DNA of 32,861 bases from a virus, in the IMG/VR virus record IMGVR_UViG_3300025881_000050, positions 1 to 32,861 of that record, one strand, 5' to 3'. The notes under the pieces are model-generated. The model ran no database searches. It was not told the DNA's origin and saw only the letters and a list, made by a program, of their open reading frames with translations. Below are positions 1 to 32,096 of this stretch, one piece after another. Within the stretch, counting starts at the first letter, position 1; each line of letters begins with the position of its first letter. A program made the translations under genes and the position numbers.

Positions 1-1421
1 TGCGTTTGGTCATACGAGTCGACGGCCATTTGCGATATAGGAATATTCATATTTGACCCTTCGACGGGAAATACCCGTTCAAGATACGCCCAAAGTTTTT
101 TCCATGTTTCGGGGTCGTTTGTCATGCCGGGAATAACATCGTAATCAATCGACCAGGTACGCTTACCGCGACCCCATCCGACTATTTCCAATTCGATACG
201 GTCGCGCTGAATATCGACGCCGGCGGTCAGGAACAAAACCCCGCGCGGACATATCCCCGCTTCATAATCTGATTTACGACGATATAGGCGTTCCCAGTCT
301 GGCGCGTCGCCTTTTTCTTTCCATGTTTCGGCTAGAACGGTATTAACGAACGTCTTTAACAAGGCGACGGACTTCGTCTTTCTTAAAGCGCTCATAGCGT
401 CCATAAATTCGGCGGCTATCGTGGACCATGAATACATCCCCAACGGGGAATAAAGCGAATTAAGGAAATAGCCTTTTTTACGTTTACGGTGCGGCTGTTT
501 GGCGCGCCATTCGCCACGTTCCAGCATCCACGTTTTTTTATATTCAGGAATCAAAGACCCGCAATGTTCGCAAGCGTACATAACGTCGGTCGGTTCTTCG
601 CCCTCGATACGCTTGTCGTTTTCTTTTTCAAATATCAGGCGATCAAATTTTAATGTCTGGTATTCTTCGCAGTCAGGGCATGGAACATAATATTCGCGTT
701 GGTCTGTTAATTCATATTCAGACGCTACGCGGCTACTTCCTTCCTCGGTCGGCGTGGACGTAATCAATATTTTTTTATTATTTCCGAATGTTCGGGTACG
801 GGCGCGGGCCAGTGTAACGGGATCCCCTTCGCCTTTAACGTCTTGCGGATAGCGGTCCACTTCATCAAGGAACAAATAACGGACAGGCATAGACGCCAAG
901 CCCGCGGCAGTATTTGCCCCAGTGAATAGCAATATCCCGCCGGGAAATTCTTTTGCATTCATGCTGTTTGCACCGTCACGGCTTTTCTTCGTCGCTACCT
1001 TTTCGGATAATTGGGGCGCGTCGGCGATAGCTGGGTCAAGGCGTTGCGTTACGACTTTGTCGCTCATATCGTCGGTCGGTTGAACCATAAGCATAGGGCC
1101 GGGGGCAATATCAATAATTGACCCTATCCAGTTTAAACCCGTTTCGGTTTTACCTAACTGCGAACCGAATAACATAACCACGGTATCGCATGGGTCAGAC
1201 GGTGAAAGCGAGTCCATAGGTTCGCGCAAATATGGGGTTCGGGACGTCTGCCACCGTCCAGGTTCGGACGACGCTTTGGACGATAAGAATCGGTATTGGT
1301 CGGCCCATTGTGATACGGTCAGGTGTATAGGGTCAGGCGCAAGGCCCCGAAGGAATGGACCGGTAACGGCTTGGCGTATGTCGCATAAATACGACGGGGC
1401 GCTATTTTGGCTTTCCGACAT
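1..1421 (-). CDS. terL: Terminase large subunit, GpA family (N-terminal part; runs off left edge)
   Basis: ATP-driven motor and nuclease that packages phage DNA into the prohead. Reading the minus strand from the ATG at 1421 gives 473 uninterrupted codons to the window edge. The Walker A-like loop is LFGSQLGKTETGLNW, in the GpA style (Q-x-GKTE) rather than the classical P-loop. Walker B is YLFLDEVDRYP, and the coupling motif is ITSTPTEEGSSR. Two CxxC-type pairs follow, then the start of the nuclease domain (TAGVDIQRDRIELEIVGWG). Lambda gpA is about 640 aa, so roughly the last quarter is missing. It overlaps the small subunit by 20 nt, which suggests translational coupling. GpA/Nu1 terminases normally cut at cos sites. 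The family call is secure; exact length is unknown. Confidence 0.95.
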   Translation of the reverse strand, partial: MSESQNSAPSYLCDIRQAVTGPFLRGLAPDPIHLTVSQWADQYRFLSSKASSEPGRWQTSRTPYLREPMDSLSPSDPCDTVVMLFGSQLGKTETGLNWIGSIIDIAPGPMLMVQPTDDMSDKVVTQRLDPAIADAPQLSEKVATKKSRDGANSMNAKEFPGGILLFTGANTAAGLASMPVRYLFLDEVDRYPQDVKGEGDPVTLARARTRTFGNNKKILITSTPTEEGSSRVASEYELTDQREYYVPCPDCEEYQTLKFDRLIFEKENDKRIEGEEPTDVMYACEHCGSLIPEYKKTWMLERGEWRAKQPHRKRKKGYFLNSLYSPLGMYSWSTIAAEFMDAMSALRKTKSVALLKTFVNTVLAETWKEKGDAPDWERLYRRKSDYEAGICPRGVLFLTAGVDIQRDRIELEIVGWGRGKRTWSIDYDVIPGMTNDPETWKKLWAYLERVFPVEGSNMNIPISQMAVDSYDQT

Positions 1422-1956
1422 GATTCATGGACTCCAGGTCTTTAAGCGCTATCGCGATTTGTTCCTTTATATAAATTGATATTTCGCGGGGGTCGTCCAT
1501 ATTTACCAGTTCAGACGCCACGCGGTCAGAAACCGCCAGCATAGAATCACGAACGCGGCGGGATATACGAAAACATTCCGCGCGGACCATGTCCACGGGT
1601 ACCAGCTTCCCCGCCTTTTCTTGATATTGCAATTCCGCCAGCTTCGCGGCGAAAAACTCTTTATGTGCCTTTGCCTTTTGGTAATGGCTCATACCCCCGC
1701 CGTTACTGTCCGCGTTTAATTCGCGGGTTTCATTTTGTTTTTTTGGATCCCGTTGTTTTGCGGGGTCGATATTGTCCTTCCATTCTTGAATGCCTTTTTC
1801 TTCGTCAATTTTATAACGTCCGCCCTTGTCGCCGACCTTCTTTACGGATTGCGTCAATATTCCCGATTTAATAGCCGCGCGAATACGGGCGTCATTTACG
1901 CCGACTTTGTCGCCAAACTCCTTAGTTGATAATAAATTTTCTTTTTTTTTAGGCAT
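1402..1956 (-). CDS. terS: Terminase small subunit, Nu1-like
   Basis: DNA-recognition subunit of the packaging terminase, 184 aa. The N-terminus (LLSTKEFGDKVGVNDARIRAAIKSGIL) is a winged-helix/HTH of the Nu1 type, used to bind cos-proximal sites. The C-terminal half is helical and charged, fitting an oligomerisation and large-subunit-binding region. The frame is open further upstream, but those codons overlap the previous gene by about 80 nt. The ATG at 1956 is preceded by GGAAAA and overlaps the upstream gene by only 8 nt, so I chose it. Position directly before a GpA-type large subunit supports the call. Confidence 0.88.
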   Translation of the reverse strand: MPKKKENLLSTKEFGDKVGVNDARIRAAIKSGILTQSVKKVGDKGGRYKIDEEKGIQEWKDNIDPAKQRDPKKQNETRELNADSNGGGMSHYQKAKAHKEFFAAKLAELQYQEKAGKLVPVDMVRAECFRISRRVRDSMLAVSDRVASELVNMDDPREISIYIKEQIAIALKDLESMNHVGKPK

Positions 1957-3097
1957 TGCGACGTTTTCCGTATATGTGACCGAATGTTTCCCCGGTTTCT
2001 TCCAGTATGGCTTTAAGCCCCGTTTCATTCTGCCAATTAATAACGGCGGCGTCCACCGCGGCGGCGTCTAACTCTATAAAGCGATATGATTTTTTTGTTC
2101 CTTCGGCGGCGATAAGACCGTTACCAATACCGCCGAATAGTTCCAAGGCTGGCGCCTTTTTGGGAAAACGCTTTAAAATCTTTTCGTAAACTTCGGCGGG
2201 TTTTTGGTCTTGAATGTCTGGCCCTTCTTCGTCATGTTCACGGGTGCCGATATATTTCGACACGATCCCCCCTTTAATTGAAGTCCAAGCCAATTCACAA
2301 TCGGAAAAATCCGAACCTTTTCGGGTTTTATCCCATACAATCCATTCGTTTCCGGCGGGTAAATTATTAAATAAATTGCCTTTAAATATGAATAATGCCG
2401 CTTCTTTAAAATCTTTTTCATAATTTTTATAATTAATATTTGCTACTTCGTCCGCCGGCGTGGATATGATAACAAGGTCGGGCGTTTCGCCTTGTAATAT
2501 TGTTTTAACATTTTCCGACTTTGTCGGCGTTCCGCATAAAACTCGGTGGTTTCCACATATCCAAACATTACCCAGCGCGGTAACTGGCGGTTCGTCGATT
2601 TTAGGAACGGCGGGTTCTTGCTCTGGCTGGTCGTCTTCTTCGTCTAATCTGTAATCCTCTAAAAGCTGGTCTAATTCCAGCGCATCAAAACCCGTTAATT
2701 CGGGGTTAAGACCCAAACTTTCAAAATCCAATAATTCCGCGGCAAGAATAGAATCGTCCCAGCCAGCATTAAGCGCCAGTTTATTATCGGCGATTATATA
2801 CATTCGCTTTTGGTTCTCGGTCATGTGGTCGGCGATTAATACCGGCACTTCGTCAAGTTCCAATAACCGCGCCGCCATCAAACGGCCATGACCGGCGATA
2901 ATGTCCCCAGACGATTCCGCCAGAATTGGCATGTTAAAACCAAACTCGGAAATTGACGCCGCTATCTGGGCGATTTGTTCTTTTGAATGGGTGCGGCTAT
3001 TTCGTTCGTATTCCTTCAAATTCTTGACGGGCCACATTTCCAATTTTTGGACGAAATTCGCGGGAAGACTTTTATCGTTTTTCTTATTTTTCGCCAT
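1949..3097 (-). CDS. ParB/Srx-type domain fused to a degenerate DNA methyltransferase fold
   Basis: 382 aa. Residues about 22-110 form a ParB-like nuclease/CTPase-fold domain, with the hallmark GHGR at 69-72 and the NKLALNAGWDD helix after it. Residues about 175-365 follow the layout of the N4/N6 DNA methylases usually fused to this domain in phages (GNVWICGNHRVLCGTPT, then a conserved QKP, then FGGIGNGLIAAE and IELD). The catalytic [DNS]PP[YFW] motif expected after DLVI is replaced by STPA (212-215), and the SAM-binding motif reads LELFGGIGNG rather than DPFxGSGTT. I infer loss of methylation with retention of the fold, perhaps for DNA binding. The ATG at 3097 follows GGAAAGGGA at good spacing; an upstream TTG at 3124 is possible. 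It sits next to the terminase genes, so a packaging or DNA-recognition role is possible but unproven. Confidence 0.85.
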   Translation of the reverse strand: MAKNKKNDKSLPANFVQKLEMWPVKNLKEYERNSRTHSKEQIAQIAASISEFGFNMPILAESSGDIIAGHGRLMAARLLELDEVPVLIADHMTENQKRMYIIADNKLALNAGWDDSILAAELLDFESLGLNPELTGFDALELDQLLEDYRLDEEDDQPEQEPAVPKIDEPPVTALGNVWICGNHRVLCGTPTKSENVKTILQGETPDLVIISTPADEVANINYKNYEKDFKEAALFIFKGNLFNNLPAGNEWIVWDKTRKGSDFSDCELAWTSIKGGIVSKYIGTREHDEEGPDIQDQKPAEVYEKILKRFPKKAPALELFGGIGNGLIAAEGTKKSYRFIELDAAAVDAAVINWQNETGLKAILEETGETFGHIYGKRRNA

Positions 3098-3284
3098 ATA
3101 ATCAATTCCCTTTCCGCTACACAAAAAAAAAGTTACACACTAGACATTAAACGCGCTCGCGCGGCACCCGCATAGCCTAGAGTTTACAAAGAACCTAAAG
3201 GGTGGGGGGTGGGGGTAGCTACCCCCTAGCACCAGTCAGAAGCCCTTGTTATCGTATAAGTGTAATACAGAAGGGAAGCGCTGG
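3098..3284. other. Non-coding, dyad-rich region upstream of the terminase operon (candidate cos/packaging or promoter region)
   Basis: No ORF is visible. It contains a perfect 16-bp palindrome GGGGGTAGCTACCCCC at 3211-3226, a GC-rich dyad CGCGC-TC-GCGCG at 3152-3163, a G-rich stretch at 3200-3215 and a run of nine or more A on the plus strand at 3123-3131. In cos phages the cos site usually lies just upstream of the small terminase gene, and this is the only sizeable gap there. The cos assignment is inference only; no known cos sequence is recognised. Confidence 0.35.
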
Positions 3285-3983
3285 CTAATACTTACTTGAA
3301 CGAATGGCCTTAGCTATCTCGGACGATAGAACGCTGTCATAATTACTTGCAACGTAACGACGAACGTTATCAACCAAGGGCCATGACTTAGGCATATCGG
3401 CATCCTTTTTAAACTCATAAAGGAATTGCAAAGGAAGACGGGACGTACTCGAACGAAGCGCGACAAACTTACGGCCTGACCTTGATTCCATATAGAACGG
3501 CTTAGGCTTTAACGCACGACCGCGGCGGCGTGTCGTAGTGGCCTTGCGTTCCTTGACGATATTCGTCGGCCATTTCGACCGTGGTAACGTCTGGTTACGG
3601 GGGTTAAGGATAGAACGCGCGCTTTGCCCCTGCCCTGCATTGGATAATGGAATAGCCATATCCCCACCGCCGGCGTTCGGACGCTTGCCACCGATAGCCG
3701 CTTGCGCCGCGACGGCATCTTTAACGCCTAATATGGCGTGAATGTCGGGGGCTTGGCGTTTGTTCGACCGTATGACAGGCATAGCCCCGCGCTTTGTTAG
3801 CCAGGGCGTACGAATATTAAAATATTTATCAAGATCCGCTTGTTCGTCGTCGCGAACATCATAGGCCAATTTATTAACGGCGCGGGACATGGCATAGGGT
3901 AACTGCGAACGGTGCAAGCGATTAAAAAAATGCTTTGCGTCCATTGCGTTTGTTTTAATGTCTATGCGAATACCGTCGGCCAT
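3285..3983 (-). CDS. Minor tail protein Z-like phage protein
   Basis: 232 aa, basic. The N-terminal stretch (PYAMSRAVNKLAYDVRDDEQADLDKYF, then RTPWLTKRGAMPVIRS) resembles gpZ-type minor tail proteins of lambda-like phages: a helix ending in AxNR/AVNK, then an RxxWxxKR element. The C-terminal half is rich in R/K (TTRRRGRALKPKPFYM). gpZ acts at the head-tail connection, but in a Mu-type tail the role is less clear, and its position on the far side of the terminase is unusual. There is no Shine-Dalgarno before the ATG at 3983; an extended -10 sits 6 nt upstream instead. The family assignment is moderate. Confidence 0.6.
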   Translation of the reverse strand: MADGIRIDIKTNAMDAKHFFNRLHRSQLPYAMSRAVNKLAYDVRDDEQADLDKYFNIRTPWLTKRGAMPVIRSNKRQAPDIHAILGVKDAVAAQAAIGGKRPNAGGGDMAIPLSNAGQGQSARSILNPRNQTLPRSKWPTNIVKERKATTTRRRGRALKPKPFYMESRSGRKFVALRSSTSRLPLQFLYEFKKDADMPKSWPLVDNVRRYVASNYDSVLSSEIAKAIRSSKY

Positions 3984-5519: not shown

Positions 5520-6110
5520 TTAAAACCCCTTTTCCATTCTTGCCATTGCATAAGCTTCGTTAATTTGTGCCATTTTATCGGCATCCCCGCCATTATCGGG
5601 GTGGTAACGGCGCGCAAGCGTTCTATATCGCGCTTTTACCGTGTCCGGGTGTTCGCCCCTGTCAATTTCCAAAACCTCCCACCATTGGCGATAGACTGGG
5701 GTCGTCATTGGCGCGGGTAATGCGGTAAAACCTTGGAAGGCGGCGCGCATCATGTCGCCCGAACCCCATCGTTCAATACCGCGAATTGCTTCGATAGTTT
5801 TACCAATGGCATAAATATTATGTTCGATTTTATCCCACTGGTCACATGAAAAGGCCATTTGCTGACCCTCATATTCGAAATAAACCGCGACTCCTTTGTC
5901 GGCGGGTATTGCAAATTTCGCATAAGGGAGTCCGTCTTGACGCAAAGGAATATTGGACGATATGACGACGTTTTTCGCCTTCAATCGGCTTAATTCCAAT
6001 AATAGAAAATCGCGGGCCATACCGAATGACTTCGGCGAAAACGCGGCTGATTTATGGTATTTACTGCGCGGTTTCCCTTCGGGCCACTGTAACGGATATG
6101 CTTCGGTCAT
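5520..6110 (-). CDS. Phage J-domain (DnaJ-like) protein
   Basis: 196 aa. The last 56 residues are a J domain: WWEVLEID, a helix II rich in K/R (KARYRTLARRY), the invariant HPD at 170-172, then NGGDADKMAQINEAY. J domains stimulate the ATPase of DnaK/Hsp70, so the protein could recruit host DnaK to a phage complex. The first 140 residues are not recognised (beta-rich, with IPLRQDGLPYAKFAIP and VAVYFEYEGQQMAFSCDQWD). Here the J domain is C-terminal, unlike DnaJ itself. It lies in an early-type operon between a PAPS-reductase-like gene and small hypotheticals. Confidence 0.85.
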   Translation of the reverse strand: MTEAYPLQWPEGKPRSKYHKSAAFSPKSFGMARDFLLLELSRLKAKNVVISSNIPLRQDGLPYAKFAIPADKGVAVYFEYEGQQMAFSCDQWDKIEHNIYAIGKTIEAIRGIERWGSGDMMRAAFQGFTALPAPMTTPVYRQWWEVLEIDRGEHPDTVKARYRTLARRYHPDNGGDADKMAQINEAYAMARMEKGF

Positions 6111-6113
6111 AAT

Positions 6114-6866
6114 TTATCTTTCCTCGCAAAATATACCGCATTCAAAATCCATATTCTTTAATGGGCTTCCTTTTGCGGACGGATCCAATTCGTCTAAATA
6201 AATCCTTTTGTTTTTTACCCTGACCAGTTTAGCGCCAAGCTGGCGGGATTGTTCGGCACGTTTCCGAAATTCTTCGGGGTGCTGTTCTCTAACGTGATTC
6301 CAATAGGTCGGCGACGTTGCTTTGACGCATCCTATACAATTCGCGTTAGGATAGCCCATATCATAAATTGCGGGTAATTTTAGGCCCGCTTCTTTTATCA
6401 TGCGAAAACAATCGGCTTTTGTAATATTTTCATCAATTAAAACCGATATTAGATTGTCGCGTTCTGTTAATTTAAATCTATCGGAACGAATCTTTTCGTC
6501 CGCGGTGAAGCCTAAAACAATCCAATCACTATGATTGTTTGATTCCCATTCCTGACGGGCGGCTTTTTTTAATTCAACGGTACAAATAGCACCGCGCGGG
6601 CCAGACATAAATTTTCTTTTTTCCCAGACTTCAACACAAGACGCCGCGGGATACTTTGAATTAACCGCTATTTCAATTTCTACGCCCAGCCATTTTTCAG
6701 AGTCTTTTAAAAATCGTCGATTGTCTGGGTGTTCTTCCTGAATAGGATTATTAATAACGCGGACTGTGGCAATGTCGCTATATTTCTCAATGGTCTTTTT
6801 CGCCGCTATCAAAGAAGCCGCGCCACATGAAAACCATACAGCTATTACGTCGCCAGCCTTAACCAT
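6114..6866 (-). CDS. Phosphoadenosine phosphosulfate reductase-like (PP-loop ATPase fold) protein
   Basis: 250 aa. An N-terminal PP-loop variant, WFSCGAASLIAA (usual SGGxDS), opens an adenine-nucleotide alpha-hydrolase fold. Further marks are IQEEHPDNRRFL, GPRGAICTVELKK, LGFTADE, and a C-terminal cluster of cysteines (ANCIGC, then ECGIFCEER) that could bind a metal or Fe-S cluster. Such proteins are frequent in phages, where sulfate assimilation is unlikely; roles in nucleic-acid modification or nucleotide metabolism have been suggested. It lies 4 nt from the J-domain gene and overlaps the upstream stop by one base. Confidence 0.8.
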   Translation of the reverse strand: MVKAGDVIAVWFSCGAASLIAAKKTIEKYSDIATVRVINNPIQEEHPDNRRFLKDSEKWLGVEIEIAVNSKYPAASCVEVWEKRKFMSGPRGAICTVELKKAARQEWESNNHSDWIVLGFTADEKIRSDRFKLTERDNLISVLIDENITKADCFRMIKEAGLKLPAIYDMGYPNANCIGCVKATSPTYWNHVREQHPEEFRKRAEQSRQLGAKLVRVKNKRIYLDELDPSAKGSPLKNMDFECGIFCEER

Positions 6867-8394: not shown

Positions 8395-8405
8395 TTTTCC
8401 TGTCA
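8395..8405 (-). repeat. TGACAGGAAAA leader element fused to a stop codon
   Basis: One mismatch from the 11-mer consensus. The TGA (8403-8405) is the stop codon of the upstream C5-methyltransferase gene, and the AGGAAAA part is the ribosome-binding site of the winged-helix gene starting at 8382. Confidence 0.6.
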
Positions 8406-9455
8406 GTTGTTAAGAAGTTCGTCCATTGTTTTGATCCGCTCACCTATCCACCGCATAACGGGGACCGCCATAGAATTACCCATAGCCTTATAACGAAGCG
8501 AATCGGGCGACGTGAGTTTCCCTTTCCATGGTATGTTTGTCCATTCGTCGGGGAATCCTTGTAAACGTTCGCACTCTATAGGCGTTAGACGCCGGACCTT
8601 GTCCCATTCGACAATTAAATCGGTAGAGTCTTTATGGTCACGGTTTTTTATTGTGCTGGCGGTTTCATCTTCGACATATTCGCCGAAGGCTTGCATTCGA
8701 TATGTCAGTACCGCGCAAGGTCCGCGCGCTACAAGCGCTGGCGCTGTTTCTGTTTCTTCTATCATAGGGTCAAACTGGGCGTTTTCCCCTTGGTTATATG
8801 CCGCGCGGTCTAAGACGATTGGTTTATAACGCTTTCTAGCGCAATCCGTAGGGGCGGGGGTAAATCCTTGGCGCGTTTGGTCGCCCGTCTTAATATTCCC
8901 GCGCAAGCTGTCGCGCTCAAATAATACCGCGGCGGCAGGGCGCCAGTCTGCAATATGTCCGACAACAAACAATCGGCGCCGCCCTTGTGGTACTCCGAAA
9001 TGTTTAGCGTTAAAAATTCGGTAGGCGAACCCATACCCGCATTCGCGAAACCCTGAAAGGATTGCGGCAAAGTCTTGTCCTCCGTTATTTGATAATACCC
9101 CCGGAACGTTTTCCCATACGAACCAACGGGGCCGTTTTTCTTTAAGAATTTGACAATATTTAAAGGCCAAGTTTCCGCGCTCATCATCCAGCCCTTTTCT
9201 AAGTCCTGCGATTGAGAAGGATTGGCAGGGGGTTCCGCCAACAAGAAGGTTAATTGTTCGGTCATTATATTCTGGCCTTTCTTCGATTTTTGTCATGTCG
9301 TCCAAGTTCGGGACGTTTGGGAAATGGTGTTTAAGGACGGCGGACGGGAAAGCGTCAAATTCGCATAGCCACGCTGGGGACCATCCTAACGGATCCCATG
9401 CAACAGTCGCCGCTTCGACGCCGCTACAAACACTTCCATAAGTAAATTTTTCCAT
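8403..9455 (-). CDS. DNA (cytosine-5) methyltransferase
   Basis: 350 aa. Transfers a methyl group from SAM to C5 of cytosine in DNA. Motif I is YGSVCSGVEAA (6-16), the catalytic motif IV is GGTPCQSFSIAG with Cys77, motif VI is WENVPG (ENV 115-117), motif VIII is QGRRR (147-151), and motifs IX-X lie in LTPIECERLQGFPDEW and YKAMGNSMAVPVM. All catalytic elements are present. No restriction endonuclease gene is adjacent, so it is probably an orphan enzyme that protects phage DNA from host restriction or marks it. A TGACAGGAATT element lies 7 nt before the ATG. Confidence 0.95.
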   Translation of the reverse strand: MEKFTYGSVCSGVEAATVAWDPLGWSPAWLCEFDAFPSAVLKHHFPNVPNLDDMTKIEERPEYNDRTINLLVGGTPCQSFSIAGLRKGLDDERGNLAFKYCQILKEKRPRWFVWENVPGVLSNNGGQDFAAILSGFRECGYGFAYRIFNAKHFGVPQGRRRLFVVGHIADWRPAAAVLFERDSLRGNIKTGDQTRQGFTPAPTDCARKRYKPIVLDRAAYNQGENAQFDPMIEETETAPALVARGPCAVLTYRMQAFGEYVEDETASTIKNRDHKDSTDLIVEWDKVRRLTPIECERLQGFPDEWTNIPWKGKLTSPDSLRYKAMGNSMAVPVMRWIGERIKTMDELLNN

Positions 9456-9462
9456 CGTGTTA

Positions 9463-9473
9463 AATTCCTGTCA
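9463..9473 (-). repeat. TGACAGGAATT leader element fused to a stop codon
   Basis: Nine of eleven bases match the consensus. Its TGA (9471-9473) is the stop codon of the upstream N4/N6-methyltransferase; the AGGA core precedes the C5-methyltransferase start at 9455 by 9-10 nt. Confidence 0.55.
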
Positions 9474-10319
9474 GATTAAAATAAATTGGTTTTCTTCTAT
9501 GTCGCCCGTTTCAAAGGCGGCTAAACATCCGCGTAATCGTTTAACGGATATTTCGTAATATTCGGGGTCTTTCTCGATACCGATATATAACCGTCCAAGC
9601 TGTAAGGCCGCGACACCGGTCGAAGACGTTCCCGCGAATGGGTCTATGATAACGTCCCCTTTATTGGATCCGTTTATAATACATTTCCGCATGACCTTTA
9701 AGGGCTTTACGGTCGGGTGGTCGTAATCAGATTTACCGACTGGCGCGTCTATAATCCGCATCTTTTCGGACAATTCCCCGCCGGGGGCAAATTTACCCGC
9801 GCGCCATGCGTGAATCCATGGTTCCGTTTCAGGAACATAATGTTTATTCGCGACCGGCATCGGATTCGTTTTACGCCATTGGCATTTTACGAATCGGTCA
9901 TAAAGCGCTGGACGCGAAATATTAACTAACGGAGTCGCTTCATCATCAATAAAATCTAATTCGCTGTATGGCTGGGTTAATAATCCCGTTATCGCGTAAT
10001 CCTGATCGTTATGGTGAAAGAGAATAACCGAATCGGCGGTTTTGGCAATTTCCCGAATAATATTTTCGTCGAAGCCATCGGCTAAACCCTTAGACCGCAT
10101 GACCTCGAAAGAATTTACCTTATTACCGAATCGGGATTTTCCGCCGGCGGCGTCAAACTCATAAGGCGGGTCAGATATGCAACGGTCAAAATGACACGGG
10201 GTATCTTTAAGAATCGTCGCCGAATCGCCCAAAAGTATTAATGCACGGTCGTTTATAAGCTGATATTCGCTTGCTTTTTGGGTTAAATCCCTATAATTTT
10301 CTAGTGTTAGCTTTTCCAT
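9471..10319 (-). CDS. DNA N4-cytosine/N6-adenine methyltransferase
   Basis: 282 aa from the ATG at 10319. The catalytic motif is SDPPY (DPPY at 50-53) and the SAM-binding motif is IDPFAGTSSTGVAA near residue 225, preceded by HPTVKPLKVM. This IV-before-I order is that of the beta class. The middle region (about 60-190) is the target-recognition part. The frame is open upstream to 10397, but the stretch carries a TGACAGGAAAG element and an AAGGAA just before 10319, so I chose the shorter form. It has no restriction partner and sits directly upstream of a C5-methyltransferase. Confidence 0.92.
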   Translation of the reverse strand: MEKLTLENYRDLTQKASEYQLINDRALILLGDSATILKDTPCHFDRCISDPPYEFDAAGGKSRFGNKVNSFEVMRSKGLADGFDENIIREIAKTADSVILFHHNDQDYAITGLLTQPYSELDFIDDEATPLVNISRPALYDRFVKCQWRKTNPMPVANKHYVPETEPWIHAWRAGKFAPGGELSEKMRIIDAPVGKSDYDHPTVKPLKVMRKCIINGSNKGDVIIDPFAGTSSTGVAALQLGRLYIGIEKDPEYYEISVKRLRGCLAAFETGDIEENQFILI

Positions 10320-10351
10320 CGTTAGGCTAATTCCTTGGGGGCGTTCTGTTT

Positions 10352-10362
10352 CTTTCCTGTCA
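10352..10362 (-). repeat. TGACAGGAAAG leader element (exact copy, distant from start)
   Basis: Exact 11-mer, 32 nt upstream of the chosen methyltransferase start, too far to be its ribosome-binding site. This hints that the word has a function beyond ribosome binding, or that the true start differs. Confidence 0.55.
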
Positions 10363-10404
10363 GATTGTAACGAACGTCCCCATTCATTTCCTGACATATA
10401 CCCA

Positions 10405-32019: not shown

Positions 32020-32096
32020 TGGTTGCAGGGGGCGGATTCGAACCGCCGACCTTGAGTTTATGAGACTCACAAGCTACCGGACTGCTCTACCCTACA
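32020..32096 (-). tRNA. tRNA-Met (anticodon CAT), CCA encoded
   Basis: The minus strand folds into a full cloverleaf: acceptor TGTAGGG/CCCTGCA (one G-T pair), D stem GAGC/GCTT, anticodon stem TGAGT/ACTCA with loop CTCATAA (CAT), and T stem GGCGG/CCGCC with loop TTCGAAT. A discriminator and CCA follow. The anticodon stem lacks the three GC pairs of initiators, so it is elongator-type Met, or Ile2 if the C is modified to lysidine. It lies within the tail operon between tube and chaperone genes. Confidence 0.93.

Follow-up and report, generated by a model that had tools for sequence, protein, structure and literature searches.

A ParB-methylase fusion protein with a degenerate methylase half in the packaging locus of a phage

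What becomes of a methylase domain that has lost its catalytic motif while the gene around it stays open? The question is raised by a gene on a single virus record of 32,861 bases (the whole of it is called the window below), in which a ParB-like domain is fused to a methylase-like domain directly upstream of the terminase genes. A preliminary description of the window had pointed out that the usual partner of this ParB domain is an active methylase with the motif DPPY, that the window protein reads STPA instead and that retention without catalysis suggests a new use, for example sequence recognition during packaging. We have analysed the gene, its neighbours and its relatives in phages, plasmids and bacterial genomes.

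Results

The fusion gene is intact and overlaps with the small terminase gene

3-1421, minus strand: large terminase gene of the gpA type (PF05876 and PF20454), cut by the window end
1402-1956, minus strand: small terminase gene (phrog_57 terminase small subunit, E 3e-29), probable true start ATG 1956; the mechanical ORF is 1402-2028
1949-3097, minus strand: ParB - degenerate methylase fusion gene, 382 amino acids, ATG at 3097, TAA at 1949-1951
3285-3983, minus strand: tail-protein-Z-like gene (phrog_1924, E 3e-18), just upstream of the ParB gene and a member of the shared module described below

The reading frame is intact, as had been described: it occupies exactly positions 1949 to 3097, has no internal stop and is immediately preceded by a likely ribosome-binding site (AGCGGAAAGGGA). 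Almost the entire protein (residues 10-378 of 382) matches PHROG 498, 'DNA methyltransferase', with an E value of 6e-77. The genes follow each other in the order ParB-methylase, small terminase, gpA-type large terminase. The overlap with a terminase gene noted earlier is real, with the small terminase gene as partner: it measures 8 nt (AATGCCTAA) when the small terminase starts at ATG 1956, and 80 nt if the mechanical ORF start at 2028 is used. Overlaps of the 8-nt type with the next gene are frequent among ParB-methylase relatives. The nearest large terminases (47-51%) are those of Pseudomonas phage ZRG1, Wolbachia WO and Rhodobacter phages; this is no more than a hint at an alphaproteobacterial host.

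The interval between the tail-Z-like and the ParB gene (3124-3284) contains a perfect 16-bp palindrome (GGGGGTAGCTACCCCC, 3211-3226; chance alone would give about 0.6 such palindromes over the full window). It also has a TGCGGGT motif that recurs in the same interval of two related loci, L258 and L135. This interval may be a cos-like packaging site.

The ParB half retains its P-motif

2627-3046, minus strand: ParB/Srx domain (ParB-CTPase fold), residues 18-157 (Pfam PF02195; structural match to ParB, Noc and KorB)
2882-2893, minus strand: GHGR, residues 69-72, the P-motif with the conserved Arg72, intact

ParB_N of Pfam (PF02195) is recognised at residues 18-102 (E 2e-7), and the GHGR listed in the preliminary description is indeed present: G69, H70 and R72 are invariant in an alignment of 62 sequences. 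When an AlphaFold2 model of the protein was aligned to known structures, residues 17-110 matched ParB, Noc and KorB with Z scores of 11-14, and the rmsd of the ParB half to 6sdk, 7bnk and 7ng0 was 1.5-1.9 over about 92 residues. Helices (residues 115-156) come after the ParB core, and KorB and Noc can be aligned up to residue 157 with an rmsd of 3.4-3.9. The cut-off for the canonical ParB/RepB/Spo0J family is not reached (TIGR00180, 33.6 bits versus 58.45). Proteins of the ParB-CTPase fold bind NTPs, with the Arg of the P-motif being required (PMC12704722); from the intact Arg72 and by analogy to these other proteins, the ParB half of the window protein may be expected to bind nucleotides too.

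Three catalytic or cofactor motifs of the methylase half are lost

1952-2572, minus strand: degenerate beta-class N6/N4 methylase domain, residues 176-382 (phrog_498; structural matches)
2453-2464, minus strand: motif IV position, S212-T213-P214-A215 (TCC ACG CCG GCG) for DPPY
2285-2338, minus strand: retained structural blocks VWDK (254-257) and DCELAW (266-271), from the alignment
2198-2221, minus strand: PDIQDQKP at the position of HPTQKP (alignment with relatives)
2117-2137, minus strand: SAM loop (motif I), FGGIGNG for FGGSGST (alignment with relatives)

STPA is found at residues 212-215, in agreement with the preliminary description: the D, the first P and the Y of motif IV are all gone. 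Conversion of any DPPY codons to these four codons takes at least five base changes, which rules out a single sequencing error. At the HPTQKP site, the His and the Thr have been lost and KP is kept. The SAM loop is altered too; it keeps the FxGxG skeleton and lacks S324, S326 and T327 of the family. F321, G323, G325 and E342 are preserved. In addition, 33 columns that are present in most relatives are deleted; these include the helix that follows motif IV and some of the target-recognition region. The indels are in frame. None of the Pfam methylase models is reached by residues 176-382, which fits a degenerate domain.

A displaced motif was also considered. The 382-aa protein has no further match to [DNS]xP[YFW], its only other PP being part of EPPV in the linker, and no motif was found in the other reading frames; active relatives could be aligned to a single frame. 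A displaced motif or a frameshift is therefore rejected at the sequence level. As replacement of just the motif IV Tyr is known to inactivate such an enzyme (Y107G in HP0593; PMC3036652), the combination of three changed motifs and a 33-column deletion very well supports the loss of catalysis: the methylase half almost certainly no longer methylates.

The methylase half is predicted to fold

The AlphaFold2 model of the window protein has a mean pLDDT of 85.9 and a pTM of 0.61, compared to an equal mean pLDDT (85.9) and a pTM of 0.63 for the DPPY control L095, and all eight core strands of this control have counterparts in the window model. Residues 180-359 match M.BceJIV, CcrM and M1.HpyAVI-SAM with Z scores of 14-15 (VIA-align); complexes of the METTL3-14 type are among the fold matches as well (Z of about 10). 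All other sequences of the model's input alignment are active relatives, which biases the model toward the family fold. Judged from the model, the methylase half is probably folded and keeps its Rossmann sheet. Retention without catalysis, as initially described, is supported for this gene: three motifs and 33 columns are lost, and a coding, probably folded protein is kept.

The STPA form is a single lineage among the relatives sampled

To classify motif IV, 335 loci were reduced to about 252 distinct complete ParB-methylase proteins, the window's own excluded. The motif is DPPY in 216 of these and SPPY in 31; two have DPPF, and DLPY, NLPF and DSPY occur once each. The aromatic residue is kept in all of the approximately 252 relatives, and with no relative lacking it the loss of the motif is not what chance would give. 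The 20 alphaproteobacterial prophage loci, a subset of these proteins, all have DPPY, SPPY or DPPF. The nearest relatives all have DPPY; as they are only 42-44% identical to the window protein, the change to STPA is not demonstrably a recent point loss.

We found no second STPA-type protein in viral contigs, among phage and plasmid relatives or in 385 alphaproteobacterial genomes. In the latter, the complete protein and its methylase half on its own served as queries, and the methylase-half query added no STPA form. With the window protein as single query, no confirmed relative was obtained from viral or genome contigs, and DNA patterns for EFGFNMP and SDFSDCELAWT returned no ParB fusions. Apparent motif-less matches turned out to be stand-alone methylases of the DVPY type, other ParB fusions, ParB-only proteins or DSPY forms. 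Some rows of two alignments (A3 and A5) were hand-altered or made up; these alignments shaped search patterns only and no conclusion rests on either. The proposal that STPA may define a clade thus found no second member: in this sampling, and with collections that may omit the records nearest to the window, the STPA form appears as one long-branched lineage.

The two halves evolve at different rates

Branch lengths were fitted separately for each half on one topology of 62 sequences. The tip of the window protein measures 2.21 for the methylase half (median 0.20), the longest of all 62, and 0.83 for the ParB half (median 0.38). The conserved columns tell the same story: 73% are kept in the ParB half and 56% in the methylase half, compared to 88% and 89% in the relatives. 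Constraint on the catalytic half was thus released far more than on ParB.

In simulations of neutral drift, the 207 codons remained free of stops in 9%, 1.8% and 0.75% of the runs with 40, 60 and 90 missense changes, respectively; these values are indicative only, as they depend on how many changes have really accumulated since catalysis was lost. The codon usage of the methylase half resembles that of other phage genes. The absence of a stop, the in-frame indels and the normal codon usage are indicative of some constraint still acting on the methylase half, and neutral decay as the sole explanation is disfavoured.

ParB is the constant element of a module with interchangeable modification parts

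This arrangement is known from phages as the 'ParB-Tls' packaging locus (PMC6536676), an idea that this paper traces to Iyer et al. 2013; 36 ParB-methylases of Paracoccus phages lie upstream of terminase genes (PMC6536676). The module of tail-Z-like gene, ParB, small terminase and gpA terminase recurs with a differing modification part. A ParB-only version is present on the E. coli plasmid pCREC-544_3 (L258, protein WP_001185429.1) and, with this one included, in 72 of 5426 E. coli genomes; these ParB-only genes lie on phage-like plasmids, mostly of about 48 kb, and are more than 95% identical between records. Another version has ParB and a separate Mom gene (L277), and a third has an active DPPY fusion, with the small-terminase-like gene placed before ParB (L135). 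Homologues of the tail-Z-like gene precede the ParB genes of L258, L277, L135, L003 and L069. With the modification part being an active methylase, Mom or absent, ParB is the constant element and modification is optional, which means that a ParB protein devoid of catalysis is less unusual than at first sight. This constancy of ParB is the main new comparative point of this study.

Mom-family genes (PF25680) are found directly 3' of ParB-only genes and before the terminase in L277, L290, L316, L263, L322 and L335; some of these loci (among the last five) have other terminase types. Judged from these sequences, ParB seems to pair with modification enzymes other than methylases too.

Several further variants were seen. 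In the prophage G125, the ParB-methylase copy is split and apparently broken. The ParB frame of L102 (3890-4531) continues as HNH-endonuclease-like sequence (NHIDGNKANNSASNLEYVTSSENKRHA), reminiscent of a ParB gene with a homing endonuclease inserted. In L300 (3950-5677) and L310 (1331-2155), the ParB domain has a different, non-methylase tail (IYEPxxKKPxIEELYDD...), and the L300 protein is further joined to sequence that, by eye, is phosphatase- and nucleotidyltransferase-like. The large terminase gene of L316 (3331-5553) contains an intein splicing domain.

Other genes of the window

A second N6/N4 methylase with the motif DPPY is encoded at 9471-10397, in the early region, and adjoins a C5-cytosine methylase gene (8403-9455). 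The window further has a PAPS-reductase-like gene of the auxiliary metabolic or modification type (6114-6866, phrog_424), a gene for a protein whose end, read by eye, is DnaJ-like and resembles a J-domain (5520-6110, RYRTLARRYHPDNGG; PHROG 9210, function not known) and a tRNA-Met (CAT) gene within the tail gene cluster (32020-32096).

Discussion

Our best explanation, which we put forward with a little less than even confidence, is that the window protein is a ParB-methylase fusion of the ParB-Tls locus in which ParB works and the methylase half is a pseudoenzyme, serving as a non-catalytic DNA-binding or dimerising domain. The work would be done by the ParB half, whose Arg motif is intact, as an NTP-switched domain that binds or clamps DNA; its target may be phage DNA at around the time of packaging, as the position of the gene suggests. 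The methylase half would keep the Rossmann sheet and most structural residues without transferring methyl groups, and would persist most likely as a surface through which the fusion passively binds DNA or dimerises. NTP binding, DNA binding, the action in packaging and whatever role the dead half may have are inferred; for the latter, DNA binding or dimerisation is slightly favoured.

The main rival explanation, tentative but clearly to be reckoned with, is that the methylase half is a relic in the process of being lost, with the ORF kept open by the delivery of ribosomes to the overlapping start of the small terminase. Translational coupling across the 8-nt overlap, of a type frequent in the family, can account for the absence of stops; the methylase half evolves faster than any other of the 62 and lacks 33 family columns, the same module is stably found with ParB-only proteins, and the copy in G125 is apparently broken. 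A useless domain could, however, easily be removed by a small in-frame truncation. Also against the relic, the modelled core is kept, as are VWDK, DCELAW, FxGxG and QKP, and the deletions are in frame.

It is rather unlikely that the fusion has turned into an NTP-gated DNA-recognition protein, with the former methylase reading sequence or methylation state or recruiting another phage methylase during packaging. We find no support for the new use envisaged in the preliminary description, such as sequence recognition during packaging, and a slowly decaying domain whose translation is coupled to the terminase accounts for much of the same data. The idea of a packaging locus for ParB fusions is already published (ParB-Tls locus, PMC6536676).

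There is a small chance that the dead half forms hetero-oligomers with an active methylase and in this way regulates or targets it. The DPPY methylase at 9471-10397 is a candidate partner, a C5 methylase is encoded as well, METTL3-14 type complexes are among the fold matches and there is precedent in METTL14 for METTL3 and DNMT3L for DNMT3A (PMC10908127); but the candidate partner genes lie 6 kb apart and the fold match is common to every N6 methylase. A domain that is still catalytic, by means of an unusual active site or on another substrate, is very improbable: the kept residues F321, G323, G325 and E342 make some SAM binding conceivable, but motif IV lacks its D, its first P and its Y, HPTQKP has lost both His and Thr, the loop no longer has its Ser/Thr residues, and the motif IV change in HP0593 is inactivating by itself. 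An assembly or sequencing artefact is already largely refuted and hardly worth considering, even with a single virus contig and no second copy, given that motif IV alone differs by five or more bases, that two other motifs are changed, that the deletions are in frame, that only one frame aligns and that codon usage is normal.

Comparison with known systems

It has been proposed that the ParB domains of packaging loci guide DNA-modifying enzymes to packaged DNA. By retaining ParB without methylating, the window protein provides a natural separation of these two functions, and if it is still needed, ParB has a packaging role of its own. With active methylase, Mom, nothing or a dead methylase in one gene module, the role of ParB becomes testable by comparison.

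In its domain order and GHGR, the window protein is like the other ParB-N6/N4 methylase fusions (the 36 of Paracoccus phages, PMC6536676; gene 39 of Psychrobacter phage pOW20-A; PHROG 498). It shares the place directly upstream of the terminase genes with the fusions of the ParB-Tls locus, to which it is 36-44% identical overall; those examined have DPPY or SPPY and intact HPTQKP and FGGSGST, while the window protein has none of the three intact. The ParB-only protein of L258 has the same gene order and about 50% identity to the window's ParB part, but entirely lacks the methylase half. Compared to a canonical ParB of a ParABS system, the window protein falls below the family cut-off and its C-terminal half is methylase-like. 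Bce_0392 of Bacillus cereus is likewise described as a fusion of ParB and adenine methylase, and we liken it by this description only; its ParB half is a reported nonspecific nicking nuclease (as cited in PMC5512222). METTL14 and DNMT3L also keep the methylase fold without catalysis, as partner or recognition subunits, and serve as a working analogy only: they are eukaryotic, have no ParB domain and their partners are known. To all appearances, the window protein is a non-catalytic variant, from a single lineage, of a protein that is common in phages, and not a new type of system.
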